Below are positions 1 through 20,284 of a stretch of 64,000 nt of DNA, piece by piece. A model generated the notes under the pieces. It had not been told where the DNA came from and did not search any database. It saw nothing but the letters and a program-made list of their open reading frames with translations. The first letter of the stretch is position 1, and the number at the start of each line of letters is the position of its first letter. Source of the stretch: Stomoxys calcitrans (lineage: Eukaryota > Arthropoda > Insecta > Diptera > Muscidae); the NCBI RefSeq assembly GCF_963082655.1, contig NC_081553.1, positions 211,454,117 to 211,518,116 on the forward strand. The letters are read 5' to 3'. A program made the translations under genes and the position numbers.

Positions 1-300
1 AAAGGATTATTTAGCAAGAAGTCCTTCCTTGTTGAAGAATTGGGATGTAGACAATTGAGCGCGGCAGTGATGATCTCTGTAACAAGGAGAAGTTCCCCCA
101 GAGAGGCGTTGAATTCTATGTTCTGCAGTAAATATCGCCCTTAGACTGGGGGAGTCAGGAAACTTTGGCACCACTCAAACTTTGGACATTCTTCTGGTCT
201 GCTGGGGGATAGCGATAAGGCATGGGAGCGTGCTATATGCGGTGCGAATGATTATTTAGCAGGAAGTCCTTCCATGTTGAAGAATTGGGATGTAGCTCTA
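1..300. repeat. Partial direct duplication, unit offset about 246 bp
   Basis: Bases 5-52 (gattatttagcaagaagtcc...gaattgggatgtag) recur at about 250-295 with few changes. The intervening sequence shows no gene. Confidence 0.5.
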
Positions 301-458
301 TAGGTGAGCCATATTGTACAGGTCCATAGGATCGATCTCAGCATTTTGATCATTTTTTATTTAAAGGGGCTAGTAACTCGCCTTGTCATAGCGAGCATCA
401 TAGATACTCAGTAATTAAGCTAGATCGGGTGCCGCCTGGCCTCGTAATGCCGAAACAG

Positions 459-725
459 AATGAGTGCGTTGAGCTTTGTTTTTGAGTGTCGTGTTGCAAA
501 AATGCAACTCTGCACACAAATCCCAGAAAAGCAACGCGGTAAAGTTAAAACAATTTTCAACTTTGACGCTTGAAAGCGAGCATCATTCAGTGTTGCCACA
601 TGTAGCTAGTGTTTTTGGTCGTCAAAGTTAAAAATTGTTTATCTTTTGTGAGTTGATTTCTTGGCATTTGTATGCAGAGTTGCATTTTTCAACACGATGC
701 TCCTCAACGCGCTCATTCTGTTCTG
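459..725. mobile_element. Fold-back (inverted-repeat) element
   Basis: The left arm 459-585 and right arm 600-720 are inverse copies: cagaatgagtgcgttgagct...gcaactctgcacacaaatcc against the inverse of the ggcatttgtatgcagagttgc...gcgctcattctg arm. A related arm occurs at 19676-19800 and parts at 20290-20360. The loop is short, so it could fold as one hairpin. Confidence 0.65.
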
Positions 726-1290
726 GCCTTTACTGAGACTCTTCACTCGATATGGCTGTTTGTCTGCGATTGCAGTTGCAGCTACTATGTATGGAGCATT
801 CCAGTATCCGCAATCTGTGGACGCGCCCGGTAGCTCTCAGCTGAGCTTCTCGTTACTACGATAAACACCACACAGATTGAGGCTCAAAGTTCCAGCCTGT
901 GAGACTCCGACTTCCGCGGAACTTTCTGTATATATCAACAGATCGAAAGTGGATTGGGGACGCCATGGCAGGAACCTTCAATGAATTCCTTAGATTCTGG
1001 GAATCTATAAGCTTCTGGAAGGGTGTAGCGTGTTTCAGGCGATGGTCTTCGCCTTCTTGAAGGCACTGGCGGCTGCCCGATCGGACTATCACGACGGCGC
1101 TGAAGGCCTTGGAGTCGGGACCATCAAAATCGGGACTGACTACAACATGCAAAGAACTTCTTCGAACAATCGAAAAAATTGTCAGTTCTATTTGGCTCCC
1201 GGGCCATCAAGGGGTGGCTTGATGGTAATACGGAATCAGTGAAACCACCCGTGTGCCAGATTTTTGGTAGGGTGGGCACTTTCTACTTGG
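726..1290. other. No recognised feature
   Basis: Short open frames on both strands have no recognisable similarity. The mixed composition is compatible with old transposon sequence. Confidence 0.3.
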
Positions 1291-1292
1291 GA

Positions 1293-1531
1293 GGTCACGG
1301 TAGCGCTGAGGTTAACATATCCGCTTGGGTTCAAATCCTGGCGAGAATATCAGAATTTTTTTTTTCTTTGGTGGCGATTTCTCTCCAAAGAAGTGCCGCA
1401 CAGTGGCACGCCGTTCGTACTCGAATATAAAAAGGAGGCCGCTTACCATTGAGCTTAAATTTGAATCGGACAGCACTCAGTGATATGTGAGAAGTTTGGT
1501 TCTGTTACTTAATGGAATGTTCATGGGCAAA
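1293..1531 (+). mobile_element. tRNA-derived SINE, copy A
   Basis: An A-box region (tagcgctgaggttaac) and B box (gggttcaaatcc) are followed by ctggcgagaatatcag, cacgccgttcgtactcg and tataaaaaggaggccgctta. The same body is on the - strand at 57951-58247. The tRNA head is shortened between the two boxes relative to that copy. Confidence 0.75.
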
Positions 1532-2197
1532 TTTGTATCTGGATGCTTTCTACGATGGCCGCGCTAATAAAGCGTGTGCTGATGCGGTGGGTTGCAGGGT
1601 AGCAAAGGCCCTATGTCCCAGTATTTTTTCCGTAACAGAGCTACACTTATGATGGGGTTAAGGAAGCATGACCTCGGATTGCTGATTTAAGTCCTGACTG
1701 GTGATAACAACGCCAGGTCTTTGACGTTGCCCGGGGAGGAGTTAGAAATGGTTAAACACCTTTTGTGAAAACTTCATTTGAATGAATACCTTTTTTCGTG
1801 CCTGGATTCCTTGCTGTCACTTAGTCCTTCCGTTATTCTCGAGTTCTATGAGAGTTTTTCCCCAGTCTGCCCGGTTTTTTCCTTTTTTGTCTTATGCGTT
1901 GGTTTCCTTTTTTCTACCTCTATTGTTTCTACCTTCATCTAGAGTATAAGTCGCGTACTGCTAGATCATACTGCTGGCTTATGTAAGAAGGCTTGTCTGC
2001 AATACAGACCTGTTGTTGGTCCATGCTACTGCTATTGTACCGGTGAGAATATTAAGTGCTTTGTATTATTCGAAAAGGTTTGGTCCCGCTAACAGTAAAA
2101 CTTCATCGTCTAAAATTTTCATTTTCCCTTGAAAAAAAAGGTGCCCGTTATTCTGAAAACATTACACAAACTAATTTCACTTACTCTTTCTTCTCAG
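1532..2197. other. Intronic or upstream sequence, no feature recognised
   Basis: The region ends in the pyrimidine tract and AG of the DGCR2-like acceptor. It contains no recognisable upstream exon. The preceding exons (expected lectin and LDL-A modules) were not found in the window. Confidence 0.4.
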
Positions 2198-2612
2198 ATG
2201 TACTTTCTGCCAGTTCGAGTCTTACAGCGGGTGGCCATTGTCGTGACTACAATGGCAAGCTGTATGAGACAGGCATGCATTATATGCCCGGTCCAGACTC
2301 TTGCCGTTTGTGCATTTGTGACAGTGGCCTTCCAAAAGCCTGTAAAATGGTTTTGTGTGAAGCCTTCACAAAATGTAAGTCCTTTCAAACGGTGGGTTCT
2401 GGCAATAACTGCTGTGAGGTAATATGCCTGGACGATCAGCTAGCGGATGGGAGTACGGATTTTGGCGTTTGACTAATCGTTAGTGGCATCACAGCCACGC
2501 TATCACTTTCCATGATTTTTTTCCTCATAAATCGCTTTAGACGTAAAAAATTGAGGGCACGCGAAAATCGCCAAACAGCTGAAGATCAAAGGAGTATTGT
2601 GGGAAGTATTGG
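2198..2612 (+). CDS. DGCR2-like: Exon with VWFC domain and transmembrane helix; contains in-frame TGA
   Basis: The acceptor has a strong pyrimidine tract (cttactctttcttctcag). The donor is gg|gtgagt at 2613. The ectodomain part runs from HCRDYNGKLYETG to CCEVICLDD with ten cysteines spaced as in VWFC modules. After a short stalk (QLADGSTDFGV) the frame meets TGA at 2470-2472, then continues without change as LIVSGITATLSLSMIFFLIN, a good membrane helix, followed by RFRRKKLRARENR. It splices in phase (GG|T) to the next exon. The uninterrupted family-like sequence on both sides says the TGA is inside the coding sequence, not at its end. A later acceptor at 2227 would have the same phase but a poorer tract. 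Confidence 0.85.
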
Positions 2613-5600
2613 GTGAGTATTGAAAATATTTTAGATTGCTACAAGAACTCCATTTAATGGTTTTGTTATTTTCTAACTTTTAGTTATATTGCTGGCAATA
2701 TGGGCTATATGGAGGGTAATTTAAGCAGCATGGATTACACATATGGAGGCGCTGCTCACTACCCCTTGTGGAAACCACCCAGTGGCTATTTTCCGCGAGG
2801 TGAGGCGCCACCGCCTTATGATGAGGCGGTTGCCATCTCACAGGCCGAAGCATTGAGTGCACAATGTGCAGCTGCTGCAGCAGTGGCCCAGGTGGCTGCC
2901 AACCAGCGTGCCACCATGGGCATGAATTCGGTGGAGCTACAAACCGACATGAATCGCCGTGCCCAGGTGCAGCAAATGCAACAAATACAACATCACCAGC
3001 AACCGCAGTTGTCGCATCAGAGTACACACGTTGTGCCCACCACATTGCAGACGCATGTGTTGTCCGCGCCAGCACCTCAAGCGCAGGCCCAGACAAATTC
3101 TCAGTCGCATCAGATTACCCAAAGTACCACCAATTTAATAAATATCAATATAAACAGTGGAGGCAATATAACTACCATAGCCACCGGAGAAAATCATCAG
3201 CCACCTTATAGTTTACAAGATGAGGCAACTGCAGGAGCTGCCCTAATGCAGAGCCAACAGACTGCTGCGATAGTGGCGCAACAACAGCAGCATCACCAGC
3301 AACAGCATCAACAAATGATTGCTGCTGCCGTAGGCAATGTTGGTGGTCACAACAACAGCAGCAGCAGCAGTAATACCAGTCGGGTACACATAGCCCAAAG
3401 TAATTCGATATGTGTGCAAACCATGACTCCAGTGGTGAGCCAACAGCAACATCAACACCAACAACAGCAGCAGCAGCAACAGATGTCCACAAATCAGCAG
3501 CCGTCGACAACACAAAGTGTTCTACAGCCAGCTCAAATAATGACATCCACTTTAACGGCCAACACCTCGACTGCCTCGATGAGTCGTCAGCAATCTGGAA
3601 CACCACAAAATGTGGCATCTGCCGGCAACCCCAATGATTGTGGCTATAAAAATTGTCATCTGAATGTAGCCAATGTGGCCACCAGCACTGTATCACGCCG
3701 TTTGCATAGACCCTCTGAACCTCCCCTACAACAATATGTGGTGGACGTTGAAGTGAATGTCAGCAATTCAGGTTCTGGGCGCGGTTACCATTCACTACCT
3801 CCTTGTACAAACGCCTTGGCCACCGATGTGGATGGCTCGGCTTCTCCCACCCAATTTGGCAATATTTCGCCATCGCTAACAGCAGCCATTTCTACACCAG
3901 CCATAGATGTTGAAGACTCCAATGGAGCAAATGAGCATTCCTCCTTTGCAGCGGGGCCAAACACGGACAGCCTTATGCAAATACCATCAACGGGTCACAA
4001 TACCTTGCCCCTACAACATTCTCAATCCAATAAGGTGTCAAGTTCGTCAGGCGGCAGTTCGGGCAAAACTTCAACATCCTCCAGCTCAAAGCGTTATCAT
4101 CGGACCATGCCTCGTTACTATGCCGTGGCAGATCCATTATCACAGACTATAAGTGGCAAAACGAAATCCGATTCAAAGATGTCGGCAAACTCTTCGGCGA
4201 ACAGCAATGCTTCCTCTTCGACTTCCTCAAATGCCTCGTCATCCACCAAGAAGCCAACGTGCCAGTGCCCTGTGCAACATGTGCCAATGTCTTATATGGG
4301 CTCCACACAGCTCAGCAATGCTCAAAATGCCACAAATAATGCTTTTTTCACTGTCTTGAGCAATAAATTGAACTCAAACTCTTCCGCCTCGAATTCACCT
4401 TCGCCTAGTCAGCATTCGTCGTCGCGTCTGCAAACACACTCCAATACAAGTTCTATGAATTATCAACAACGAGGCTCATCAAAGGCTTCGCAATCGTCGT
4501 CCTCGACGGATAATAATGTGATCAATTCGGCCAACAACACGATGAAGCGCTCTTCGAATTCCAGCCACTGTAACTATGAGGGAAAGATTGCCACAATTTC
4601 ATCGGGAGAATTAACAAGCTCGGCAACGACTCAGCAGCAGCAGCAACAGACACAACATCATCACCATGGCCATGCTCATCACCACAGTCATGGCCACCAT
4701 TCGTCATCTTTGATGTTGCCACCTCAGCATCATGACGATTCTTCGCCCATTGTATTGGGTAGAGTGACAAAACGTAGCTCCAGCAGCAGTGGCGACCGAT
4801 TACGCAGTGCCAGTAGTGGCAGTACCCGAACATCAATGGTTGACGGTGCCACAATCACATCACCGGCCGCCGCCGCATATTTGAACAGCAAGGTATGTAT
4901 GATGATGTCGCCATGAATTGTTTAAATAATGACTTGTGTACGGCAGTCATAGACCGACAGTTGTATTCCTTATATCATCTTTTTTTTTATAACTACAAAA
5001 TATGTTAGTCATATGATTTGGCATGGATTTCGGGTTGAATCATCTGATATGGGATCTGATGTCTTACCGACATCGTAACTAAAAACGAGAGAAGTGGTTG
5101 TCATGTTGTCGGAACGACACGGCTCAGGGCAATCTGATGTATTTACCGACATATCGTATAGATATTAGACCGACAGTTGGAATGACGAATCCTTTTGGTT
5201 CAGATGGGTGCTTTCTAAGGACCTGAAGAACATACTGGGAGGCAACGGCACTCAGCAGTAGTCAAGCTCTAAATTCTCGAGCTACTGGCTGCAACACACT
5301 TCCCATGTGTCATACGGCTTTTTGAGGTAACTTTAAGGAGTTGCATTTTGCTGGATTTTTTGGCAAGTAGGTGGCATGAGGTTAGGGTAGTTTTATCCCG
5401 AAAACTGGGAAACCTATCCACTCCCTGTCCAAGAATTACAGACTAATTTGTGTCTAATTCTTCGTCTTAAATACCATTAAGAGACTGTTGGTCCTTGTCG
5501 GCCCATCATTGTTCATATGTTCGCGTACTTTTCCAGTAAAAATTTGCAGGAAAGTAAGAACACTTGATTTCTAAAGGGATTTTGTTGTTGCTTGTTGAAT

Positions 5601-8600
5601 AAAAAAACCTGATCTAAGCTGGAGAATTTGTGACCAAATTAAAAAGAAGCGCAAAAACAGATGAATGCACGGACAGCACGTCGAGGTTATTCTATGGCCA
5701 ACGAGGATTGTCTGGATAACAAGTCTTGGCTCCGTGTGTGTTGCTAGTGCTAGATGTCTTTTTGAGGAGATGGTGACTTGTTGTTGATTTTAACATTTTC
5801 TTGCTGCGCGATAAGAAGAAGTTAACCAATATGACCCAACGTTTCATTCAAAGACATGCTCATACCATTGCACTGCTCACTAATTAGTGAGTAGGTGGAA
5901 CACATGTAATCTTTTAGTGGCGATTTTCATTGGCTTTTATGTCAAAATCAGCTGATTTCTAAGTAAAAAAAAAATCGACAGGCTGGAACATTGAGGTCCA
6001 ATCTCTGTGATGTTCATTGTTGTCACGAGAAGCTTAGCTGCATCCACAGGTTGCTCTTGCACAAATATTGAGTGTCTTTGATGCTCGATATTACAAGGCG
6101 AGTTATTGGTTCCCGCGGCAAGCTCGTTCCTTGGACCGGAACGAGCTTGCTCACGAGGACCGCCAACTCCACTTGAAAATTTGGCTGCAACAACATCAAC
6201 GTCGTCATCAAGATAGGCTTTTTCGTTCAGAGTCCAATCATTAAGATGTCTGGATGGGCGATAGCAAATTAGCTTGGCATAGTCCCCAAAAAGACGTAGC
6301 TGGTGCTATTCAGATCATAAACTTGGTGTTTCCAGGGGACCTGCCCCTGATGGGATAGAGCTGCCTCTCACTCCGGAGGCCAAGCATCTGGACGTGATTA
6401 TGGACCAGAAATTAAACTGGAGAAGAAACGTCAATGAGAAGGTCAAAAAGAGACTGACCTTCTCTCTTCTAATGATTGCGGTTTGGCTGTTTTTCACCTA
6501 TGGATGTCTGAATTGGGAGAGTACAGCTGCTCCTTAGAATGATTGAGAGCGGTACAGAGTTCCCTGGCGGTGCTAATCTCCTAAGAAAGGAGTTGCTCCC
6601 CGAGAGAAGCGGTGAATACCATATGCAAGACAACGGTGCCTGTTTTGGGCTACTCTGGCTCAAGCCCCAAAAACGTGTTCCTGGGGTCATTTATTTTTTT
6701 TGCAATTTTCCCCGTAATCTGCACACAAGCAGATACCATTTACCGGGTATGCGTTCTTTCTAAATAGTAAAGCTGGTAACCCATTGGCTCCTGCTGCCTA
6801 AGTATACTTTATTCGGCATCATCCGCAAGATGGATGGATGGGAAGTGCAGTATACTCGATGAAAACGAGTTTTATTCTAGTTTTTAAAAGAATATGCCTT
6901 TTTTATGCAAATTCATTTGACTTACATTTTAGTGTAGTTTTCTTATATGTAAATTCACTATTTTGTTATTTTTTTCAAAAACATGTTTTCTATGTATTAT
7001 TTACCATCATCACTTTAATTTTACAGAACATTACTTCATTACGCAGACAATAACAATAATCATCATTTCTTATTGCACCACAAATCTCATACAATTATAG
7101 TTGAGAGACTCTTTCTTTCTCTCTGACTCTCTCTCCTCTCCCCCCACCATTCACCACAAAATTGTATCATTTCACTATTCACATACAAGAAAAATCAAAA
7201 AAAAAAATCAAGATTTTTAATGAAACAAGCACCAACATCAACAGCAAAAAAAGAAATAGCAATTATATGTAATTTTGTACAAAAACAAAAACAACAACAT
7301 CACAAAACCCAAAAATAAGCAATAACAAATTTTCCTAAAAATTCTCTTTTTTGAACATTTTAATGTGGATGGATACATATGCATGTGGTGTGCGGGTGTA
7401 TGTGTGTGTGTGTGAAATGAAAATAACAAAACGGCAATATGGCAATATTTTAATACGATGAAACCAACATAACGATGTTGAAGGTCGATGCCTATTTGAG
7501 TTTTGCACATGGGGCCGTTAGCAGCCACCACCTGAAGGCTTATCACAATGATATAATGAATCCAGCATTACCACCGAAATTGCATAAAAGTTTAACGAAT
7601 TTAAAGAGTTCTTCATCCAACGCAGCGGGCGGCAATAATCACCTTCAGCAACAGCAACAACAACAACAACACCATAACATTCAGAGCACCAACAATGGGT
7701 TGGCTACAGCTGCAACAACAAACACAAATACATCGACACATCGAAATTCAACATCACATAAATCGCATGATTTGAATACGAATTCGAACACTACCTCCGC
7801 CAACAATACAGTGCTGCTAAATTGTAACAATTCTAACCTAACTTCTTCCTCCTACTCCGTTAATCCCAACAACAGCACTCACAGCCCCTCCACAGTAATA
7901 TCACCGTCATCATCCTCATTGGCAACCTCTTCCTATAACAATATGTCAGCAGCAGCTGCCTCTTCGTCTTCATCTTCCTCCACCACCTCTGTACAAACCA
8001 TATACACTTTAAGTAAGCCCTCCTCCACCTCAGCAAATACAGCAGCAGCATCATCACTTATTGGCTTGACCGCCAGCAATACCACCAGTACGTCATGCAC
8101 CCCCTCAAATCATCGTTCGCTCAAGGATCATCATGATCACATAATGAAAATACAACCGCCTTCATTGACACTACCATTGAGTACCACGTCAACCACATCA
8201 TCGTTTACCAGTTCCACCAGTAAAATTAACTCTTCAACATTTTATCCTTTGCAAAATAATGTAACCTATACGCTGCCAAAGAATGTGGGAGGTGGTAAGG
8301 TGTCCCTGAACAGTACCATCAATAGTGTGGTGAGCAAAGTACCTTCCGTCATAAGTCTGCCACTGCATGGTACAGAGCAAAATAATAATAACAACAATTA
8401 CAATGGCTATGGTGGTAGTGGCAACTATGGTGGTGGTGGTGCTAACGGCTATAGCACCAATATGTTATCCAGTGATAGTTCATACAACAGCCACCAATAT
8501 TTAAATGAAATGAATGGAGTGGGTGGAGTAGGTGTAGGAGGGGCAGGGGTAACGGTAGCTGTGGGCCCCACAGCCACAACTTCAAAGAGCACAACACTGC

Positions 8601-11600
8601 CAAAGATATTGCGCTCAAAACGAGATGGCCTACAACACAATGCCACCAGCTCCTCGCTGGCTCCCTCGAATATCAATTGCAATCCCTCAAATACTTCGTC
8701 CTCTTCCAATTATGCGGTTTCGCAGTGCTCCATGCCAGCCTATCCCAAACAATATGGCAACTCTTCTAATAATGGCGGTGCTGGTAGCGCTGGTGGGGCG
8801 GGCAACAGCAACACCACCCATTATCACCAACAGCAGCAACAACAACAGCAACAGCCAAATATTAATAACATGCAAACGCAAACAATAACATCAACTTTAG
8901 CCGCTAATTATTGTCCAGAGGATTCACATTTGAATACACATTCCAATTCAACTATAGGCTCCCATGCCCGTTCCACCTCCCCATCTGCCTCCTCCAGCAC
9001 TTTAGCCAAGCAACTGCCTGTATGCACCACATCCAAGAATTGTCTAAATCCCAAAGAACATTTTCTACCCAACGATACCAGTTTGGACGATGATTATCTC
9101 AGCGAATGTGAGAATTGTAAAATAGCTCAAAGCTCCAAATACTATTTAAATGCCGAAGCTTTGACTAGCGTCGGCGGTCCCCAAGAGACTATGACATTGC
9201 AACGTAAATCATTGGAGGAATGCAAGGAGGAGCCAGACACAGGATATTATCGTATATCACATACATTGCCAACAAATTCTAAAAAGAATGCGTAAGTATT
9301 ACATTGAATAATAAAGAATTGATGATTGAAGCAAGCACTTTTAAATTAAAACCACTAAAAGCGTGCTAAGTTTGGCAGGACCGAATCTTATATACCCTCC
9401 ACCTTTGATCGCATCAATCGATGTCAAGTTCTTTTACCGGTATCCATTTATAAAGGAAAAAAGGATAATGGGTAAAAAATGCTGTGCCATAGCTGTTATG
9501 TCAGCTAATGGGCCGATTCGGACCCTTCTTGGTTTGGTTGTGGGAGATCATTGTAAAAGTCATTGTACTAAATTGTAGCCAAATCAGATAAGATGTGCGT
9601 CCTGTAGAGGCTTAAGAAGTAGAACCGGGAGATAGGTTTATGTGGGAGCTATATCAGGTTTTGAACCGATTGGGACCTTATTTTGCAAGTATGTTAGAGG
9701 TCATAGGAGAATTCAGTGTGCAAAGTTTCAGGCAAATCGGATAAGAACTGTGCCCTTAAGTGGCTTAAGATGTAAAATCGGAAGAACGCTTTAGATTGGA
9801 TTAGATTCAGACAATACTTGCACGGCAAACAGACACCGACACTTAGGTAGAGACCCAAAACCAGACATGAACCAACTTAAGGGCGTGGTATGGAAATCAA
9901 TTAAGAATTTTATAAGTAGCACGGAATTTCTGACTTTGATTGTCTTTTTCAAGTTTAGGTTAGGTTAGGTAGTAAAGAGGGTGTAGATATTAATGCGCCC
10001 CACGCTGCTAAACCAGTAATCAGCTTGTTTCGCGCCCTAAATACAAAAAAAGTAACCTCGAAAAAGGAAATTTAAGTTAGGAAGTCCGTGCTACTTACAA
10101 AATCCTTAATTTTTTTCCATACCACACCCCTAAGTTGGTTCAAGTCTGGAATAGTGTCCCCACCTAAGTGCCGATATCTGTTAGAAGCGAAAGCCGGGCA
10201 ATGACAAAGGAAATGCTCCATGGTCTCATCATCTGCCCCGCATTGTATACACATGCTATCACTTGCCCCACTGATTTTACATAAGTGAGCTCATAAGTCC
10301 TATGTGTCCCGTCATGATACCAACAGCTATACTGACCTCCTTCTTACTTCCTTTCAGTAATAGCCTCGCCTTCTCACGATCTGTATCCCTCAATAGGATT
10401 CTTGCCGTCCTACCGACCGTTCCGCTGTTCCACAGGGTTGCATGCGCATCCGTCGCCCACGCCCTTTACTTGAACTGCGTCGACCCGAAAGGTTTCGGAT
10501 TAGCCAAGTTCATTGACGGCAGTACACCTTCACTGCCAAACCGTCTGTCCTTTCATTCCCCCTTACTCCGTTATGGCCCGGCACCCAAACGATACGGATT
10601 TTGCCATTCTCAGAAAATGCGTTAATCTCCTTCTTACACTGCAAGACTGTTCGCGACCTTACCACACCACTTCACGCGTTCCGTGATCATCCGTATCTTC
10701 GCCTGCAGGACCGTATTATAGTCAGGCAGTCTAAAACAGTTTTCAGTCCCTGGGTTCTCAATGTAGACCCCTAGGTCCAATCTGTCCTCTAGCTTTGATC
10801 CATTCGAGTAACATGATCTTTCAGATGGCAATACTAGGTTTCCGTCAATCCAAGACTGTGCTGATGGCAGCAGTGGCTTACACTCGACTTCATAATTCAT
10901 CTCAGGTATCCAATCGGAAACCTCTTCCCTTCCTTCCAGTTTTCCAATTGTCGCCTCGATTATACCGCGATGGTATGAGCTGCTCCCATCCTCAATTCAT
11001 TCTCCCATCGCCTTTAGTCTCATAGCCGCAGTGGATGCCTCACACTTTATCTGTATGCCATTGAGTCGGATATCTAGAATAGTTTCCAGTGCCCTAGTGA
11101 GCGTGGTCCTCATCTCACCGCCTATGCCAAGACAACATGTTCTCTGAACCTGTTGAATGGTCCTTATGTTTACTTTTTCTCCATAGCAGTCCACCAAACT
11201 ACTGAGGAGTAAGCAAGGGTTGGTCTAATCATGCTCCTATGGAGCCAGTGGACTTGGCTTGGATTCAGGCCCCATTTCGAGCCTACAGCGCGTCTAAATA
11301 GTTCCCATCATCTGTGAGCCTTCTCTGTACGCTCCGGAATGTGACATTTCCAATTCAGTTTCCTGTCCAAGATCACACCTAAGTATTTGACCTTGTCAGA
11401 AATCGAAATCGTCTTATTGAGGAAACATGGTGCGTTAAATTGACCCAATGCTATATGCAAAACCCTTTCGATCCTTCTGCATAGCTGGTTCGGATCCTTA
11501 TCCCTTAGAAAAATAATAACATCGTCTGTCATCCCTCCTCAGTCGGCATCCGTTATATGTCATTTTTGGTGGTCACCCATAGGAGTGGCGACTAAATGAC

Positions 11601-12660
11601 CCACACTGTGGCGTGCCTTGTGCCCCTTTGTCCCTTATATTTATGTTCAGAAGCACACAATTTATCCACCTGTTTCTTAGCATATGGTTGATCCAGCCTC
11701 TAAGGACCGGTACTGGTCTAAGAATTGGATCAGTGTGTAGGTCCGCACATTCTTAATTCCTTCGGCATCAAAGGATTCTTCTATTTTATGCACAGCCTAG
11801 TGCAGGGCAGTCTCCACCAACCTTCCCTTGACATAGGCATGCTATTTGTAATTGAGCAGTTTGCTGGTTGTCCTACTCTTTATCATGATGTCCACAATAC
11901 GTTCCATGGTTTTGAGTAGAAAGGACGTAAGACTTTTGGGTCTGTAGGAATTTGCTGTCGCATAACTTGCCTTGCTGGACTAAGGTATAAATACCACCCT
12001 TGCCTACTTCCAGGCTTTCGGAGTATATGCAAATCCCAGGCAAGCTGTGAAAATATTGGCCAGGTTGTGCGCTAGATGGCTATCTTCCTCTTTCTGTAGT
12101 AACGCCATCAGGTCCGGGTGACTTAAATGGTTTGAAGCTCCTCAAGGATTCCTTCACCATAAATTACGTAATTATAAACCTTAGATCAACATCATTATTC
12201 CAAGATTCCGGTGTCTCCGTGAGTCCCGTCATATCCTGTGGAAAATAAGTTTTAATCAAAAGACTCAACATGTCCTCTGTTGTCTCTGCTCTCACTCCCG
12301 TGTCGTCTACCCAAGTTTCAGTTTGGATATGGGTTTTTGAGAGAATCTTTTTCATCTTGGGGGCGTCATTAACGCTATCGACCTGTTCGCAGAAAAGCTT
12401 CCAGGAGGTACATTTTGCCGCTCTGGTTATCTTATTGTATTCCTTGAGACGTATGTAATACACATCCAATAAACTTTCACTTTTTTGCGGAACGTGCTCT
12501 TTCTTTCTCTCTAATTATTTTATGGTAAATGATTGACTGGTCACAAATTTTTGATCTTTTAATTTCTTTTTTCAGACCAGTAAAAAATAATAATCGTGAT
12601 CAATGGTTTTCAACTATACCAGCAGCCAGTTCATCCTCAGAGGAAGATATCAATGAATGA
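2198..12660 (+). CDS. DGCR2-like: DGCR2/IDD-like integral membrane protein, 3' part of gene (join of four exons)
   Basis: The model joins 2198-2612, 2684-4892, 7484-9291 and 12576-12660. Entering in phase 1, the phases close exactly on the TGA at 12658-12660 (about 1,500 residues in this window). Domain order is a ten-cysteine VWFC module, one transmembrane helix, a basic stop-transfer stretch (RFRRKK), then a juxtamembrane block GSIGYIAGNMGYMEG followed by HYPLWKPP and PPPYDEAV. This block and the VWFC module are what I recognise from DGCR2/IDD. The rest is a huge Ser/Gln/Asn/His-rich cytoplasmic tail, much longer than I expect for the vertebrate protein. The family's N-terminal part (LDL-A and C-type lectin modules) must lie upstream of the window or be missing. 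An in-frame TGA at 2470-2472 interrupts the frame. The junction into 7484 is the weakest. By family the protein is a putative adhesion receptor at the cell surface; its function here is inferred. Confidence 0.8.
2470..2484 (+). promoter_or_regulatory. Candidate stop-codon readthrough site (UGA CUA with downstream stem-loop)
   Basis: The codon is TGA followed directly by CTA, the best-known efficient readthrough context in animals. Bases 2472-2476 (actaa) can pair perfectly with 2480-2484 (ttagt) around a 3-nt loop. A competing stem pairs 2483-2487 (gtggc) with 2494-2498 (gccac). Termination would release a soluble VWFC ectodomain; readthrough would give the membrane form. A simple nonsense change of a Trp codon or a sequence error would look the same. 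Confidence 0.55.
2684..4892 (+). CDS. DGCR2-like: Large cytoplasmic-tail exon of the DGCR2-like gene
   Basis: The acceptor is tctaacttttag and the donor aag|gtatgt at 4893, which ends in phase 0 at ...AYLNSK. The exon starts with YIAGNMGYMEG and then HYPLWKPP...PPPYDEAV, a proline/tyrosine motif typical of the family and of the PPxY class bound by WW domains. The remaining roughly 650 residues are compositionally biased: Gln/His runs encoded by CAG/CAA/CAT, Ser runs, and a His-rich patch around 4640-4700. There are short ordinary islands such as RRLHRPSEPPLQQYVVDVEV and KRYHRTMPRYYAVADP. The frame stays open for 2.2 kb despite the repeats, which supports real coding use. Reading past the donor gives only VCMMMSP and a stop at 4916. 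Confidence 0.85.
4893..7483 (+). other. Intron of the DGCR2-like gene, about 2.6 kb, with repeat debris
   Basis: It is bounded by a good donor at 4893 and a weak acceptor at 7483. A second, much better acceptor (tttaattttacag) ends at 7026 and opens only an 8-codon frame (NITSLRRQ, stop 7051). Inside are a piece at 5515-5570 that recurs at 26.3, 27.5 and 47.7 kb, and a LINE reverse-transcriptase fragment at 6345-6465. The part from 7060 to 7470 is CT-rich and then A/AC-rich and resembles UTR more than transposon. Confidence 0.5.
6345..6465 (+). pseudogene. LINE reverse-transcriptase fragment
   Basis: The forward frame reads ELPLTPEAKHLDVIMDQKLN followed by WRRNVNEKVKK. This matches the post-catalytic reverse-transcriptase block (KYLGV.LD.KLNW) of RNase H-bearing non-LTR elements. 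A related sequence lies on the other strand at 11308-11532. Both sides have stops and frameshifts; it is a relic inside the intron. Confidence 0.6.
7484..9291 (+). CDS. DGCR2-like: Second large low-complexity tail exon of the DGCR2-like gene
   Basis: The open frame runs from an ATG at 7475 to the donor aatgc|gtaagt at 9292 (phase 2). Poly-Ser, poly-Asn, poly-Gln and Gly tracts dominate. The final 80 residues are ordinary and acidic: CLNPKEHFLPNDTSLDDDYL, then SECENCKIAQSSKYYLNAEA and KSLEECKEEPDTGYYRISHT. That end is likely the conserved functional part. The start is unsure. Joining from 4892 in phase 0 needs the acceptor gatgttgaag|gtc at 7484, which has no pyrimidine tract. Alternatively the exon is the first coding exon of a separate transcript starting at ATG 7475, because the frame is closed by a TAA at 7451. 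Confidence 0.75.
9340..9790 (+). repeat. Muscoid dispersed repeat, 'atatcaggtt...accgatt' family
   Basis: It begins with agcgtgctaagtttggcagg and tatataccctccacc, then two degenerate ~170-bp units containing 'gccaaatcagataagatgtg' and 'gggagctatatcaggttttg'. The same unit forms the long arrays at 61.0-63.5 kb. No coding capacity was seen. Confidence 0.7.
9810..9940 (+). mobile_element. LINE C-terminal fragment, + orientation
   Basis: The + strand from cacggcaaacagacaccgac to agcacggaatttctgac is the same coding end that lies on the - strand at 10080-10190. The two 3' ends face each other with about 130 bp of 3'-UTR-like sequence between. Stops interrupt the frame. Confidence 0.6.
10072..12470 (-). 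mobile_element. Degenerate RNase H-bearing non-LTR retrotransposon (ORF2 relic)
   Basis: Read on the - strand, the pieces appear in ORF2 order. Around 12469-12164 is pre-RT sequence. At 11532-11308 is the palm region (TDDVIIFLRDKDPNQLCRRI, with KVKYLGVILDRKLNWKCHIP), where the catalytic Y-A-D-D is damaged to T-D-D. At 11197-10997 is the thumb (VQRTCCLGIGGEMRTT). At 10900-10634 is an RNase H-like part (YSNGSKLEDRLDLGVYIENP). At 10254-10072 is the C-terminal zinc-binding end (CIQCGADDETMEHFLCHCPA). Frameshifts separate every block, so it is dead. The RNase H domain points to the I/LOA/R1 side of LINEs; the exact clade is not resolved. Confidence 0.8.
12576..12660 (+). CDS. DGCR2-like: Last coding exon of the DGCR2-like gene
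   Basis: It follows the acceptor ttcttttttcag and completes the split Ala codon (GC|A). It then reads PVKNNNRDQWFSTIPAASSS followed by SEEDINE and stop TGA. The phase match and a plausible acidic C-terminus support it. A-rich sequence typical of a fly 3'UTR follows. Confidence 0.8.
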
Positions 12661-13520
12661 GATTTAACACATTTTCTTTAGTATTTAATCAGATCTTTAG
12701 AAGGGAAATAAGCCAACAAGGAATCAACAACCACAATAGGCAATAAAACAACAAAAACAAAAGCAAACGGAGAAAATCTTTTCCCCCCCCCCAAAAAAAA
12801 AAACTAAAGCCACATACCAAAGTTCTATACAAAACAAAAATAGATGTTGTTAATTTAAAAAAAAAAAAACAAAAAGATGATCTTATTTGCATAACACAAC
12901 AACAACAACTAAGTATAATTAAATTTAATTCCAAACATTAAAAAAATAGTGAAGCAAATAGAGAAAGTATATGAATTTTAAATATTTCATAGAAAAAGAA
13001 AAGACATAAACAAAACAAACACTCAGAATCTCTCACACACACATACACATATAACAGACAAAACAAACCAAAAGTAAAGTTTAAAAACAAAATGACCGCC
13101 ATTATAATTATGATAATTAATAATTTAAGAATACAAACCAAAAAGAAGGAAAGGAAAAACAAAGAAGAAAATTTAATTGTTACAATATACATAATATACA
13201 ACAACAACTTCAGCAACAGATGTTCTCAAAAGTTTAAACGTACATGTATAAACAAACAAAATACAGCAATTCAAGACACACACAAACAAACACAAAAGGA
13301 AACGAGCGGAAACGATCGGTTACGATAGACAAAACGGTAGTAGAAAAAGAACAAAAAAAAACTAACCAAACACAAATCACATTCAGCATAAATTAAAAAA
13401 GTGTTAATTTAAATGTACAAATTATAACTGTATATTGCAAAATAAAAACAAAAAGACATTCTCTTCAAAAAGACACATAGAAACACACTCACACAGGTAC
13501 TATATATGCTGTGTTTTATT
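12661..13520 (+). other. Probable 3'UTR of the DGCR2-like gene
   Basis: A/AC-rich, with many poly-A runs and CA dinucleotides and no open frame worth calling. AATAAA signals occur (for example around 13440). Similar-looking blocks at 15.9-16.9, 20.7-21.5 and 28.7-30.0 kb may be further pieces of the same very long UTR, split by insertions. This is inferred from composition only. Confidence 0.45.
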
Positions 13521-13529
13521 TTAGTACCG

Positions 13530-13660
13530 TACAGCATAGACAATAACACCGGTTTTCAGAAAACTAAATGTCGATTTAAAATAGGTTTATTTGAGATATT
13601 TTCTTTATAGAACTGTCAAATAATCCTATGTTAAGGCTTCATTAAGTTTTGTGAATAACG
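13530..13660. mobile_element. Small inverted-repeat element, partial copy
   Basis: The stretch 'ctttatagaactgtcaaa' ... 'taaggcttcattaagttttg' recurs at 17190-17250. The rightmost end (cattaagttttgtgaata) is the inverse of the left end of the 17-kb copy (tattcacaaaacttaa). It is a MITE-like element without coding capacity. Confidence 0.6.
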
Positions 13661-13974
13661 CCGTTAATGAATATTGGATGTCTCCAAGAGACTCTTTAAG
13701 TGCAAACATAATAAATAAATGAAGAAAATTAAGAGAAAAAAATAACTTTGTATGAACAAAGAATGTAATTTAGCTTTTTTGCAATCGATTGTGGACATTT
13801 TTGTTGCTTTTAAACTTCATCATTTAAATCATCTTTTAACTTTTTTGTTGCCATCCTTTTATAAATTTACTTGTTTTTCCTACAGTTTTTATGTTCTCCA
13901 AATTGCTTTTTTTCCTCTCTAAGGTGACTCTTAGGAATGAAACCAAAGAAAACGTCAGATTTCTAAGCGTAGTT

Positions 13975-14270
13975 CGCACACAGAAAAAAAATCGCAACAA
14001 AAATTTCAATTCAAAATAAAATCGTTTACAATTAAAAAAATAATTGATTCAATCATTTTTTAATTGAATATAAATTTATTTCAATTACAGTCGTGATCTA
14101 AATTTTGCCATTTCAATCAAAAAAAAAAAAAATGATTTAGTTAACCTTTTAATTGAAACTGAAAATTTTCAAATCAAATTCAAAATTATGTAATTTTTAA
14201 GTAAAAGTTTAAATGATTCAATCTTTTTTTAATCGTATCTAAAAAATGTTCCAATATGGTGCTTAAGTAA
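13975..14270. repeat. AT-rich repeat with TTGAAT/ATTCAA motifs
   Basis: It starts with cacagaaaaaaaatcgc and consists of repeated 'aattgattcaatc', 'tttaattgaa' and 'tttcaattaca' motifs in both orientations. It is likely a non-coding transposon relic; no gene was seen. Confidence 0.35.
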
Positions 14271-14364
14271 ATTCAACTAAAGGCTATTATGTCCGATTTC
14301 CTACAATATCAACGTAAGGAGATTTCAAAGACCCACACGTCAAACATTTCGACAAATCTATAGA

Positions 14365-14480
14365 AATACCATGGCAGCCGGTTCTACGTGCCGGATTAAC
14401 CTAATGGAGTCCTTCATACGCCAAGGACTACCGCCTCAGTGCACAATACACTGCTACGACAACAACAACAAATCTGTAGG
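14365..14480 (-). mobile_element. Short dispersed segment ending in (CAA)n
   Basis: The segment from ccatggcagccggttctacg to gctacgacaacaacaacaaa is the inverse of sequences at 21745-21862 and 54515-54640. All three share the ggcagccggt...tacgt core and the (CAA)n/(TTG)n end, so they are copies of one short dispersed piece. Confidence 0.55.
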
Positions 14481-14494
14481 GCACCCAATGGCAA

Positions 14495-14765
14495 AACAAT
14501 TAAAGGTGGTCTCATTTATACAACAACCACAAATCATATGGTGCAATCCACCATCTAGCCATTAAGGTGATCGACGTTTTGCCAACACACAAATAAATTT
14601 GTGTGCTTGTGTGCATATGTGTGCGTACATGAGCAGGTAATATGCGAGAAAGAAGACGACAACAAAGAGAATGCAAACAAAAATGTGGCATCGTAATATC
14701 GTCCGGCCGGCTGTTAACAGCTGTTCGCGTGAGACCACTTTTTTAAAACCGCCTTGAGGGTACCC
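14495..14765. mobile_element. Inverted-repeat element 'GGTGGTCTCA', copy 1
   Basis: It starts ttaaaggtggtctcattt and ends gtgagaccacttttttaa, an imperfect terminal inverted repeat. Internal sequence includes 'gatcgacgttttgccaacac' and 'acatgagcaggtaatatgcg'. Copies are at 19386-19640 (inverted) and 27745-28000. Each is about 250 bp and non-coding. Confidence 0.65.
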
Positions 14766-14940
14766 CTACCCGACCCGGGTGCTCACGGACCTTTGCCCAA
14801 ACAACACACCTCAAGTTTTGTTCAATTTTGTAAAAAAAATTAACTGCCAATAGTATGGATAAGAAAAATATCAATCGATATTCAGACAAAAAAAATTAAA
14901 TATCGATAATGCCATCGATATTTTGCCGACTCTACCTACT

Positions 14941-15352
14941 AGAGCTGGCAAACTATCGATATTCGCAACAATCGATATTTCTCATAATAAATATCGATAG
15001 TATCGATACTATCGTTTATTTCCCATCACCTATATTTCAAACGAAAATAAGAAGTAAAAATCAAATGATCAATTTATAAAAAAGCAATATCAATGCACAG
15101 ACTGAATAAAACCAAATTTAACAGTCAGTTGGATGTCATGGGAGAAATCGTTGTACAAAATTTAAGCCTAATCGAATGTAGATAGCGCCCTCTAAAGGCG
15201 CAATGTGTCTTATATGATACATTCAGTGTCGGGTCGGTTATTTTTGTTCAATTTTGCAAAAAAAATAACTGCCGATAGTATCGATAGGAAAAATATCAAG
15301 CAATATTCAAAAAATAAAATATCGATAGCACCATCGATATTTTGCCAGCTCT
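14941..15352. mobile_element. hAT-like MITE with perfect 12-bp terminal inverted repeats
   Basis: It begins AGAGCTGGCAAA and ends TTTGCCAGCTCT. An 8-bp direct repeat TCTACCTA lies at 14931-14938 and again at 15353-15360 (the left copy is offset two bases from the repeat end). An 8-bp target duplication and a TAGAG-TGG-CAAA type end are hAT hallmarks. The interior has no open frame. The ends carry dense ATCGAT motifs. A degenerate relative abuts it on the left (14800-14935), and others are at 18370-18900 and 51594-51952. Confidence 0.7.
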
Positions 15353-16985
15353 TCTACCTACAGACTCTTAATAAACCAGATAAGCCATTGTTCTCAATGA
15401 AACAACGATTAGAAATCTGACGTTTTCTTTTGTTTCATTGGGGGATCATAAAAAATAAGTGAAGTTAAAAAATGTTTTGTAAAACTAAAGTTAAAACTAA
15501 GTTAAAATATTTTTCTTCGTTTATTTCTAATCTTTGTTCTTGGTGCCTCATTAAAAGAGTCGATTGTCTGTGCCACGAACGTTATTTGTCAAAAAGTTAT
15601 CGAAATCGCAATATTTCAGTAGCTGGGCAGGTTACTTGACCTTCTTTAGTGAACACTGTTCTTTGAACTTTAGTGGACACTGTGCCAACGGCGCTTTTTC
15701 GTTGTCTGTTTTTATTTCGGGCAAGCATAAGAAAAACAACAGTCAAAATAAAATGTATAATTGGATAAAGTTAGAAGCATTTCCTTGAAATATCCTGCCG
15801 CATAAAATGTAGTGGTTAAATGGCACAATTTTTAGCTTTGGTCACGTTTGTAGCCAATTTGATTATTTGCTTTGCAAATTTTAACCTTTGTCCAAATTAA
15901 AGGACCGAAATTGTAAATATATTATTATTATTGTTTTATTTTTTTAAATAAATATTTCAAAGTCCTATTTTTATCAATTTTTTTTTAATGGAAGAAAATT
16001 TATTGTCCGCTATACTGCGGACAAAAATTCGCACATTTCTTTTCGAATTTTCGATTAAAATCATTCGATAACGGATGCCATCATCCAAAAGTCGATTGCG
16101 GGAATTAGGCCCTAGGGATATTCATGATTTATCGGTTATCGCATGATATCGATATATTTCCAGTACTACTTTGCACTGCAATTCTATCAAGAACTTCTGA
16201 TTTGCACTGGATAGGACTAAAATAAAACACGGCAATTGTGTATTTGTGAAAATCATCGTACATATTATTAATAAACAAAAAACCCCAAACATACATACAC
16301 ACACAAAAGACTAAACACATACTTAAGCATACATGAAAATTAAAATCCATAGGACTACTAAATAGAACCAAAAAAAAACTAAATAAAAAAATTTAAAATT
16401 ATTAGCTAAAGCCAAGTTAAAAGAATCTCAAAATAATATTAAAAAAAAAACAAATAATATTAAAAACGAAATGAACTTTTTGCTCATTTTCAACTGCTAT
16501 AAAGAAGAGAAAGCCAACAAACGAATGTAATAATGATTAAAAACCCACAAAAAACTGTAATAACAAAATGTGTGAGTATATTTAAAAATATTATTTTTTC
16601 CTTTTACAGTTTATTATAAAGAAAAAAACTTACTATTTTTTTCTTTTTATCAATGTATCATACTAAAGACCAAACTTCTTAGCACAAAGCAAAAGAGATA
16701 TTTATAAAAAAACAAAAACCAAAAACAAACAAGAAACCACAAAATTTACAGCATTTACAATATTTATGATAAACGAGCAACTGAACAAAATAAAACAAAA
16801 GAAACCAACATATAAATCCATTGACTCTACACTACTCCACACTAGGCATTTCAAAAATGTCTCATAATCACATATATTTTTTCCTCACTCTACATCATCA
16901 CTACAAGTAATGACTTCAAAGTGCAATCGATTGTATAGAAATACTCGTACAAATGGGTCATGATTTGGGAAAACAATTTTAAAGC
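15353..16985. other. AT-rich non-coding stretch
   Basis: No gene was recognised. The part from 15.9 to 16.9 kb is A/AC-rich with repeated 'aaaacaaa' and resembles the presumed 3'UTR sequence at 12.7-13.5 kb. A short ATCGATA motif occurs at 16147-16154. Open frames here are short and unlike known proteins. Confidence 0.3.
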
Positions 16986-16994
16986 TTAAACATA

Positions 16995-17260
16995 CACGGT
17001 ATTCACAAAACTTAAAAGCTAGACCTTTAATATTTTTTTTATCACTCTATTCATTCGCCAATTCAATGAAAACAGCTGTTTTCCCTTTATACAATCAGCT
17101 GTTTTCAATGAATTGGCGAACGAATCGAGTGGCAAAAAGAAAAAGAGTTAGTGGTTTAGGCCGTTATTGTAGATTTAAAGTAGGTTTATTTGACAGATTT
17201 CCTTTATAGAACTGCCAAACAAACCTATTTTAAGGCTTCATTAAGTTTTGTGCGGTTAAT
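16995..17260. mobile_element. Inverted-repeat element with internal palindrome
   Basis: The left end tattcacaaaacttaa matches, in inverse, the right end ttaagttttgtg near 17250. Within it, 'cgccaattcaatgaaaacag' (from about 17055) and 'ctgttttcaatgaattggcg' (from about 17099) form long hairpin arms. The right portion repeats the element at 13530-13660. Confidence 0.65.
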
Positions 17261-17593
17261 ATTTTACTTAAACCAAAAAGGGCACAGAAATAAGACCACA
17301 AGCTAAATTTTACCATATTCGGTTAAGAAATGCAGCCTGTAGGCTTTGCCGGGATTCAGGATTCTGGTACTACGTACCCTATCCCCAATCCTGCTGAATT
17401 GTCAGTTGATATTACCCCAGGGGATACCGGAACACTCATAGCCTTACTCCACATTCTCAAACACTATCTGCCCTTGGGCAGCTCTATGTTGGCTTTCGAG
17501 TAATCTCTTTCTCTTGTAGTGGTTTGTGAACTACTGTCTTATAAACGTCGATCGCGTTTCAACTCTCTTTAGACTCTAACATAATGGTTACCA

Positions 17594-17760
17594 GGGCGCC
17601 CCGTTAGTCGAGTTGGTAGCGTGCTTGGATTACCAGTGCAGCCGTCGTGGGTTCGATTCCCGCCAGAAGTCTTGGTCTGTCACTGTGGTATCACAATGGA
17701 CTTCAAATTTGTCTAAGTGAGTCTGTAAAGGACGGTTACTCTTACCTAACATGATGGTTA
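17594..17760 (+). mobile_element. tRNA-derived SINE
   Basis: The head resembles a tRNA: an A-box-like tagtcgagttgg and, 33 bp further, a B box gggttcgattcc. The acceptor stem does not close after the B-box arm, and the sequence runs on into a non-tRNA body (ggtctgtcactgtggtatca...). It is therefore a SINE rather than a tRNA gene. Confidence 0.65.
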
Positions 17761-17789
17761 CTATAAAGATATATTCATTTACAGGTAGT

Positions 17790-18010
17790 GGCAGTTGTCG
17801 AACAACAAAATATTGAGTGCACTATCTTTCAAAATCAGTGATTAGTGCAACTCTGATTTTGAGTATGTTACTAGTTTGCGCCATTTTTCGTTGTTTGTGT
17901 GTATGGTTCTTAACTATAATACACACACACACCCAACCAAAACTCGTTGACAGATAGTGCACTGCGCGACAAAAAATCGTACTCAGCTGTTTACGGTACA
18001 CTACCTGGTA
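17790..18010. mobile_element. Dispersed element with internal (CA)n microsatellite, copy 1
   Basis: The core is 'atggttcttaactataatac' followed by (AC)n, then 'ccaaaactcgttgacagata' and 'ctcagctgtttacggtacac'. Copies are at 23505-23720 (inverted) and 30100-30310. It has no coding capacity. Confidence 0.65.
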
Positions 18011-18059
18011 ATTATGACATGGATACTATATTATCCGCCATTAACCGTTTGCTTATAAT

Positions 18060-18386
18060 GGACTCCACTATATTGCAACCTATGGCGAATCTGATCATGT
18101 GAATACCACATGTTTTGCGTTCTCATCCATTATAGTACATTTTGGGAATCGTGGAGAGGTGTTGTGCCTGCGGCAATATTGGTACATATGTAGCTTCTGA
18201 GCCGCCTGTCAGAAATTGGGTCAGGTTGAAGTCTAGCCTCTCGAACTTTCGCTTTAACCACTTGTTTGTGATTGGTAATAATTTATGCGAAGAACCACCA
18301 TTTGGGTCTCCACGGTGCCCAAAGTGTCCCATCACCTTTGCTAGTCTTCCATCGTAATCTCTCACGCACAGACCGAATAAAATCAC
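18060..18386 (-). pseudogene. LINE C-terminal fragment
   Basis: The - strand reads KLLPITNKWLKRKFERLDFN and LTQFLTG, then, with a frame break, DENAKHVVFT. This is the terminal zinc-finger region of R1/Jockey-type ORF2 proteins (LTQ.LTGHG...YL...DE...H..F.C). It is broken by stops. Confidence 0.6.
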
Positions 18387-18900
18387 ATTAAATCAGTTGG
18401 AAGTCATGAGAGAAAAAATTGTAAAAAGTTTTAGCCTAACCGGACGAAAATTGCGCCCTCTATAGACGGAATATATCATGAGGGATGCATTCATTGTTGA
18501 ATAGCCTATTTTTGTTAAATTTTGCAAAATAATTTAACTTTGCCGAAGTATTGATGGGAAAGATATCAATCAATATCAAGATATCAATCGATATTCAGAC
18601 AAAAAATAAAGGTCCTTATTATGTATGTCGTATTTGAATATTCGACTACAACTCCCGAGAATTCGCGGTTTTATTTCGTCGGTTTTATGAACAATATTGA
18701 GGTGATTGCTTTCTTTACACATGAGCTACTTGCAAGCATCATATATTACAAAAACAAAGCAACTCGATTTTGCACATAATCCCAATGAAATATTAACTTT
18801 AATTTTCAGCTGTCGAAGTCGAAAATTCGACTACGACATACTTAATAAGGGTGAAAATATCGATAGTGTCATCAATGTTTTGCCAGCTGTAATTCAGACC
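18370..18900. mobile_element. Degenerate hAT-like MITE relative with a nested insertion
   Basis: It shares 'agtcatgagagaaaaaat', 'aaaattgcgccctctata', the ATCGAT-rich end and the terminal ttttgccagct with the element at 14941-15352. It is interrupted at 18614-18850 by a second element. Confidence 0.55.
18614..18850. mobile_element. Nested ~237-bp element with ~30-bp terminal inverted repeats
   Basis: The left end ccttattatgtatgtcgtat pairs with the right end, whose inverse starts ccttattaagtatgtcgtag. Homology to the hAT-like MITE resumes on both sides, so it inserted into that element. The open frame through it is unlike any known protein. Confidence 0.6.
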
Positions 18901-19385
18901 GCGGCTGATATGTGTGGTGAATGCGATAAGCACTGTTGTTGTGATGTATATTTTAGGGAATCCATGTTGATGATGTGCACCCCAACCAGCCAGGAGGAGC
19001 GCTTCGAGTGTATTTGCAATCGGGCATAGCAGAGAGATCGGCCCATATGATTCCTTTGGTACGAGAATCTACCCGACTTAAAAACGAAGAGATTTATTTT
19101 CCATATTTGGGGTATTACTAGGTGGATTTGAACAAATTGAGGATATTCGTCAGGTATTTCATGTCCACCTCACCTATATATTTGACCTAAGCAACATCTT
19201 CGGCTATGAATGGCTGTGATTTCAACTGGGAGCTGCTTTGATATCCTTAAAATGCTTTTTTGCCTTTTCTTTCATTGGGTGTTCGCCAAATTGTCTGCCT
19301 GCACACTGTTACGAATCCGTTAACTGTTGTACGTGAAACGCTATGGTAACCCTACTTATCTACCGCGACAAGGCGGATTTAAAAA

Positions 19386-19640
19386 GATTGTCGCACGCGA
19401 ACAGCTGTTAACAGCCGGCAGGGTTTGACGGTATTAAGATGTTAGATTTTTGTTTGCATTCTCTTCGTTGTTATCTTCTTTCTCGCATATTCCCTGCTCA
19501 TGTACGCACATGTAAACACACACGCACACAAATGTCTTTGTGGGTCTTGGCAAAACGTCGATCAGCTTGATGGTGGATTGTACCATGTGATTTGTGGTTG
19601 TTGTATAAATGAGACCACCTTTAATTTTTTCGCCATGGTA
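19386..19640. mobile_element. Inverted-repeat element 'GGTGGTCTCA', copy 2 (inverted)
   Basis: The inverse of 14495-14765: it ends aatgagaccacctttaattt, with cttctttctcgcatattccc and caaaacgtcgatcagcttga inside. It runs directly into a fold-back arm at 19676-19800. Confidence 0.6.
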
Positions 19641-19675
19641 CCGCTAGTTAAGTACCTAAATGAAGATCTAAACAG

Positions 19676-19800
19676 AATGAGAGCGTTGAGGAGTGTTGCG
19701 TTGAAAAATGCTACTCTGCCAACAAATGTCAAAAAATCAACTAACAAAAGTTAAACAATGTTCAACTTTTACGACTAAAAACACTACTTACCAGTGGCAG
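19676..19800. mobile_element. Fold-back element arm
   Basis: Sequence cagaatgagagcgttgagga...aaaaacactacttacc matches the inverse of the right arm at 600-720. The - strand keeps the frame VAFFNATLLNALILF, also present at 661-864 on the + strand. Confidence 0.55.
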
Positions 19801-20284
19801 CACAGAATGACGCTCGCTTTCTCGTTGTTGGGCGGTGTTGAGTCACCTGCCACTGCATGGCCTGGTGTCGCAGAATGAAAATTTCTGCCTATCCTAGTCT
19901 TCCCAATCTTGAAAAAGACAGCTTTGCTCCCGTAGTGCGCCATGTCTTTAGTCTTAGCCAAACTCGTCACGGGGACTTGATCAATGCCAACCACAGAGAG
20001 AGTTCCTTCCTCCTTCCAAGACCAGAACCTTGCAAGCCATTTCATTACAAACGTTTGACCCGGCAACATTAACGAAAACGCAAATTTCGATCCCTTTTCT
20101 TATATCGGCTCTCATTGCACCTTTAGAGGCTCAAAAGTATATGATCAACTTTTTCTATGGTTCTTGGGCCTCGAAAACCTCAACTACTGCCTCAAGGCAT
20201 TAATCCCAATTTGTGCACACACATCACCTATGCGTTTTTTGAACTAATTTTTAAAAGTAGAACATTTTTTTAATTTTTCCGCGT

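Follow-up and report, generated by a model that had tools for sequence, protein, structure and literature searches.

The 64,000-nucleotide window of Stomoxys calcitrans DNA analyzed here carries the coding frame of a DGCR2-like protein that is broken by a TGA codon directly in front of a predicted membrane helix, raising the question of whether this stop is a defect, the boundary between two separate products, or a place where ribosomes may read on. Comparison with related proteins makes it very likely that in the dipteran DGCR2/IDD orthologue this codon serves as a conserved site of stop-codon readthrough, where a secreted protein would be switched to a membrane-bound one.

The TGA is the sole interruption of the exon A reading frame between the acceptor (AG 2196-2197) and the donor (GT 2613-2614). 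Proteins P0091 and P0092 match the exon 5' of the stop, P0014 matches it 3' of the stop, and the exon has a single match in the 1.07-Gb genome. Hydropathy in exon A peaks directly past the stop (2.24 over 19 residues), basic residues come next, and the exon connects in phase 2 to exon B, which begins at 2684. A preliminary description of this DNA had placed the TGA in the DGCR2-like frame, with CTA as the next codon and with a membrane helix, a stop-transfer sequence, and an in-phase splice just beyond; the open frame on either side, the hydropathy, and the phase agree with it on each point. Beyond the stop, the tail matches an NCBI protein of Stomoxys calcitrans (P0014, isoform X2) at 770 of 770 residues, which is not independent confirmation, since P0014 probably comes from the same assembly. 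With the Haematobia isoform P0016, the tblastn matches at the exon C region extend back to 7481. The features are listed in the table.

Table. Features of the DGCR2-like locus (window positions, unless a contig is given).
Feature	Position	Strand	Remarks
Signal-peptide exon (L003)	C2:211439606-211439654 = window -14510 to -14462		Found by scan with the exon of relatives
Exon A	2198..2612	+	Remainder of VWC-like ectodomain, UGA, membrane helix, stop-transfer
In-frame TGA	2470..2472	+	End of short form, putative readthrough site
CTA	2473..2475	+	3' context of the stop (UGA CUA)
Membrane helix LIVSGITATLSLSMIFFLI	2473..2529	+	19-residue hydropathy 2.24; basic NRFRRKK next
Hairpin GTGGC-ATCACA-GCCAC	2483..2498	+	Begins 10 nt past the stop; candidate element
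ATG	2512..2514	+	Start in NCBI model P0014; within the membrane helix
Intron	2613..2683	+	71 nt, phase 2
Exon B	2684..4892	+	Cytoplasmic tail, Gln/Ser-rich, PLWKPP and PPPYDEAV motifs
Exon C region of tail	7685..9292	+	Approximate ends; tblastn with P0014 and P0016
Last coding exon	12576..12660	+	Ends SSEEDINE; final TGA 12658-12660

The start of the first ORF was located by scanning the 120 kb upstream, together with window positions 1-2197, with signal-peptide exons of relatives. The exon found, 14.5 kb upstream of the window, encodes MYLQIVFVINFIHNIN, followed by G and GTAAAA, and scores 55 with the Sarcophaga query, compared with 32 for the best match at any other position. Its phase is compatible with that of exon A, leaving an intron 1 of about 16.7 kb. 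Joined, the two exons give a first ORF of 107 residues ending in DGSTDFGV, with length and ending the same as in the Sarcophaga protein P0091. The donor GTAAAA of the signal-peptide exon looks weak, and a second in-frame ATG lies 12 bases upstream.

The preliminary description had also placed a VWFC module just before the TGA, an assignment that finds weak support in fold and collagen-II matches and does not reach the Pfam VWC gathering score. The structure model of P0107 (mean pLDDT 72, pTM 0.35) comprises a small module rich in beta structure together with one short and one long helix (the latter at 99-140), and VWC modules are its top two PDB matches, both weak (E 0.016 and 0.053). Collagen-II VWC chains match the Stomoxys module with E values of 0.003 and 0.004, and a PDB profile search with alignment A2 gave no match. 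The Pfam VWC match of the Stomoxys module has 22.8 bits, below the cut-off of 27.6, and two of eight relatives matched the same family, both under the cut-off; we therefore call the domain VWC-like. The protein is related in sequence to proteins annotated as DGCR2/IDD, the names being the annotation of the source records, and shares with those of other insects the VWC-like module, the helix, and the PPPY tail in the same order. The other-insect proteins differ in having a sense codon (Arg/Lys) at the site and one full-length product. The anatomy, with a signal exon upstream and a helix right behind the stop, supports the earlier suggestion that secreted and membrane forms may be made from the gene.

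The relatives comprise 132 cluster representatives from three protein searches, whose length limits favor short proteins. They were sorted into 28 short forms, 7 records with tryptophan (W) at the site, 71 other long forms, and 26 proteins without the sorting cysteine motif. In an alignment with the Stomoxys and W records, the last residue of every one of the 28 short forms falls in the column immediately preceding the Stomoxys stop. Because alignment programs tend to bring chain termini into register and the linker ahead of the stop is of variable length, the common ending motif outweighs the column alone: 25 of the 28 end in [DN][FIVL]G[IMVL], the other three in NFAI, DFTI, and DVFI. The stop is thus conserved at the orthologous position at the protein level, with W in the same column in seven further records, and it is the relatives that raise the observation above chance. 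Organism names are carried by nine short forms and by none of the W records, and all nine are Diptera: Sarcophaga bullata, Drosophila ficusphila, D. gunungcola, Anopheles arabiensis, Aedes albopictus, Culex pipiens, Sergentomyia squamirostris, Lutzomyia longipalpis, and Polypedilum vanderplanki. A sequencing error, a fixed nonsense mutation, or a pseudogene in Stomoxys would come to mind for a single-genome observation taken alone; we reject this explanation and give it practically no weight, the stop column being common to all the short relatives and the tail being intact and matching the NCBI protein, even if not from an independent assembly.

The third search returned 43 proteins, namely, all short forms and W records, a joined Anopheles model (P0101), four long forms, two fragments, and P0132. 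The four long forms (P0111, P0114, P0122, and P0123) run through the site with Arg or Lys, and the two that are named are both from Lepidoptera. The fragments P0112 and P0128 end elsewhere than at the stop column, and P0132 is a metagenome piece whose sequence diverges past the ectodomain. The 26 proteins without the cysteine motif are 22 tail-only proteins of the fly type, two joined models (P0003 and P0027), and the two fragments. Eight of the tail-only proteins start with MIFFLIN (calyptrates), six with MRAREN (Drosophila or similar), and eight further on.

Among the 71 long forms, five dipteran models (P0001, P0002, P0020, P0063, and P0101) lack the stretch that contains the stop; with P0003 and P0027 there are seven such models, from Glossina, Culicoides, D. 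busckii, and Anopheles. They could be taken to favor alternative splicing that omits the UGA from a membrane isoform, and the AG at 2493-2494 is in phase with the exon 1 donor, so that a splice form lacking both the stop and the ectodomain might be made as an extra product. However, the seven models skip different stretches, and six of them lose the helix (P0020 from Culicoides keeps it), as would be expected of gene finders avoiding a stop; from the stop to 2530 there are just two AGs (2482-2483 and 2493-2494), both with poor pyrimidine tracts by eye, and skipping would not conserve the residues around the stop. We regard splicing as improbable, and the joined models are probably annotation artifacts caused by the in-frame stop. 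NCBI models, which are automatic, place the two halves in separate proteins. In Lutzomyia (P0109 and P0089) and Sergentomyia (P0106 and P0088), the halves are likewise separate proteins, in each species on contigs of one and the same length (51,077,213 in Lutzomyia and 414,694 in Sergentomyia).

The remaining 66 long forms are not known to be dipteran. The residue at the site was scored by pattern in 62 of them, P0051, P0067, P0080, and P0132 being left unscored and P0040 and P0041, which the pattern misread, being corrected by eye to Arg. The site holds Arg in 58 and Lys in 4, and neither a stop nor W occurs among the 62. A sense codon in other flies, which the preliminary description had named as the check that would point to an error, is absent at the protein level from every fetched record named as dipteran. 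Since other insects have Arg at the site, the stop likely arose by a single transition from CGA to TGA early in Diptera. The ancestral Arg, which is not Cys, also argues against a selenocysteine codon, a reading that an in-frame UGA would permit and that we consider exceedingly improbable. A search of Rfam matches in positions 1-20000 (E up to 1) for a SECIS element gave none, and we rejected this candidate.

The seven W records read through the stop column and continue with LVASGITATLSLS, or nearly so, into the same membrane helix. The W is best explained as TGA translated by code 4, an interpretation suggested by P0121, which continues CTVR-WV where P0113, P0127, P0129, and P0130 end in CTVR. 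This is the expected reading of AGG TGA GT, an exon end with the donor GTGAGT, when TGA is taken as W. Two W records can be paired with a stop-ending record: P0113 has the 67 residues just before the site in common with P0097 from Aedes albopictus, and P0095 has the 41 residues just before the site in common with P0092 from D. ficusphila. In each pair W in one record stands against the end of the other, as translation by code 4 would produce. Leu follows W in all seven records, which are known as protein only, while Stomoxys itself has UGA CUA. A-to-I editing of UGA to UGG would also give the W of these records, but that residue is already expected from code 4, and P0095, P0107, and P0113 resemble unspliced genomic pieces, judging from their start and end points. 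ADAR disfavors a G before the edited A. Here a G precedes it, and the 100- and 101-nt pieces folded contain no long duplex, leaving editing a very small chance.

The Stomoxys residues between the stop and the ATG at 2512 (LIVSGITATLSLS, 13 residues) are identical to those of the seven W records at 9 to 11 of the 13 positions, with 11 in the Drosophila-like P0095 and 9 each in the mosquito-like P0113 and in the cockroach P0006. Protein-level constraint therefore begins right behind the stop and ahead of any ATG or splice site. This conservation is the main evidence against the strongest competitor of readthrough, in which two products arise from a short ORF for the secreted protein and a second ORF with a start of its own downstream, by way of a dicistronic mRNA, an internal promoter, or reinitiation (in calyptrates at ATG 2512 and in Drosophila at MRARENRQ). 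The NCBI proteins of Stomoxys, Haematobia, Musca, Calliphora, Lucilia, and Cochliomyia do begin at ATG 2512 and those of Drosophila later, as separate ORFs would suggest, but the starts of the models vary by group (MIFF, MRAR, MGYM, MRVN, and MGSI). P0095 has 26 residues without Met, and its whole helix precedes the first Met (MRAREN), so that this helix could not come from a downstream AUG start. A downstream-only product would also lack a signal peptide and, in Drosophila, the helix. We consider separate ORFs unlikely, if somewhat less so than splicing.

Stop-codon readthrough, the reading that we prefer, draws on features that can be read directly from the DNA and the relatives, namely, the position, frame, and phase of the stop, a fitting signal exon, the conserved stop column, and the peptide behind it. 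From these we infer readthrough itself, with its rate and regulation, as well as secretion and the inserted residue. Termination at the UGA would give a 107-residue secreted protein made of a signal peptide and one VWC-like module. A minority of ribosomes would read UGA CUA by means of a near-cognate tRNA, adding the membrane helix, the stop-transfer sequence, and some 1,130 residues of cytoplasmic tail that include the PPPY motif, and the resulting type I membrane protein would be about 1,255 residues long. Trp, Arg, and Cys are the candidate residues for insertion at UGA. The stop would have arisen within the ancestral full-length frame and then been retained, and insertion of Arg would restore the ancestral residue. 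We lean, with some reserve, toward the wider proposal that all Diptera have retained the nonsense codon throughout their evolutionary history as a translational switch between a secreted VWC-like factor and a membrane receptor of the DGCR2 type, the latter being made only by (possibly regulated) readthrough of the UGA; fly DGCR2 would therefore be hidden from annotation and not lost.

In human genes, UGA CUA forms the consensus for high readthrough (PMC4359377), and the CTA alone is weak evidence, because it is a common Leu codon in exons A and B (10 of 45). The preliminary description had pointed to two 5-bp stems. Both are present as written (ACTAA 2472-2476 with TTAGT 2480-2484, and GTGGC 2483-2487 with GCCAC 2494-2498), but a role is left unsupported by the synonymous-recoding control. 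The GTGGC/GCCAC stem appears in the minimum-energy folds of the 30-nt, 100-nt, and 101-nt pieces, and in the 30-nt piece the hairpin has a z score of -2.6, with 3 of 200 shuffles as good. Among 5,000 synonymous recodings with the same peptide and the CTA kept, 7% fold as well at 30 nt and 33% at 51 nt, and the 100- and 101-nt pieces give z scores of -0.5 and -0.6. We see no evidence of selected RNA structure. The ACTAA/TTAGT stem was rejected as an element, being absent from all minimum-energy folds shown.

Conserved readthrough is a phenomenon of a known kind, with hundreds of candidates. It is widely documented in flies and mosquitoes (PMC5100048; PMC4528330), and Jungreis 2016 describes 113 ancient pairs of fruit fly and mosquito stops (PMC5100048). 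Like the Drosophila and Anopheles genes of Jungreis (2011, 2016), the locus has a UGA followed by C, a stop kept between fruit fly and mosquito, and protein-like sequence beyond it. Unlike in those genes, the Stomoxys stop splits an ancestral frame, and the extension adds a membrane anchor. Extensions in FlyBase are mostly 8 to 300 residues long, the longest exceeding 1,000 (PMC4528330). The Stomoxys extension, of about 1,147 residues, is ten times as long as the first ORF of 107. According to the same FlyBase account, annotated cases with very few exceptions lengthen the C terminus of a known polypeptide, and the original screen was biased in this direction (PMC4528330); a case in which the long part is annotated as a protein of its own could be missed.

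The Drosophila genes hdc, kel, Syn, and oaf are given as readthrough genes (PMC4528330). As in these four, a coding region is interrupted by the stop, and either product could be made. We know of no change from a secreted to a membrane form in any of them. In Table 2 of Dunn et al. 2013, eight extensions have predicted membrane domains, six of the eight with negative PhyloCSF (PMC3840789). Like that set, in which none of the eight is named CG42404, our locus would gain a transmembrane segment by readthrough; unlike that set, the Stomoxys helix is ancestral and has been conserved in the Diptera sampled. The UGA CUA context is shared with human AQP4, LDHB, and further readthrough genes of this type, whereas position +7 is A in Stomoxys and the favored base is G, and the LDHB extension measures 18 nucleotides (PMC4359377). 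The 13-residue extension of 2mit is a different case (PMC3786989). What sets this variant apart is the stop in an ancestral frame, the extension 10 times as long as the first ORF, and the change from secreted to membrane form.

A literature search, with coverage short of the published readthrough gene lists, returned no description of readthrough in DGCR2 or in CG42404, the Drosophila gene, which has a 105-residue ORF upstream, or of a switch between membrane and soluble forms, and the mention of CG42404 seen there is one table row (PMC3385985). None of the 132 fetched proteins contains X, the FlyBase mark of readthrough (PMC4528330), a weak negative, since the records are cluster representatives. 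Searches for DNA relatives in genome and viral contig collections gave 38 and 3 pattern matches, respectively, none of which was confirmed. Table 1 of a survey of the 22q11.2 genes lists DGCR2 without a D. melanogaster homologue (PMC4487986), which could reflect annotation that divides the protein at the stop. If readthrough holds, the locus would be a clear natural case in which it sets protein topology, secreted on stopping and membrane-bound on reading through; Drosophila genetics would become applicable to DGCR2, and the level of readthrough could be measured as the ratio of membrane to secreted protein.

Two further observations concern other parts of the window. On the minus strand, positions 43150-45830 give low-complexity tblastn matches to the Gln/Ser/Asn-rich tail (about 20% identity) and are perhaps another Gln-rich coding region. 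A palindromic element at 446-730, with inverted arms at 446-473/703-730, 498-557/630-689, and 548-568/620-640, is probably a small inverted-repeat transposon and attracts sub-threshold Rfam microRNA matches.
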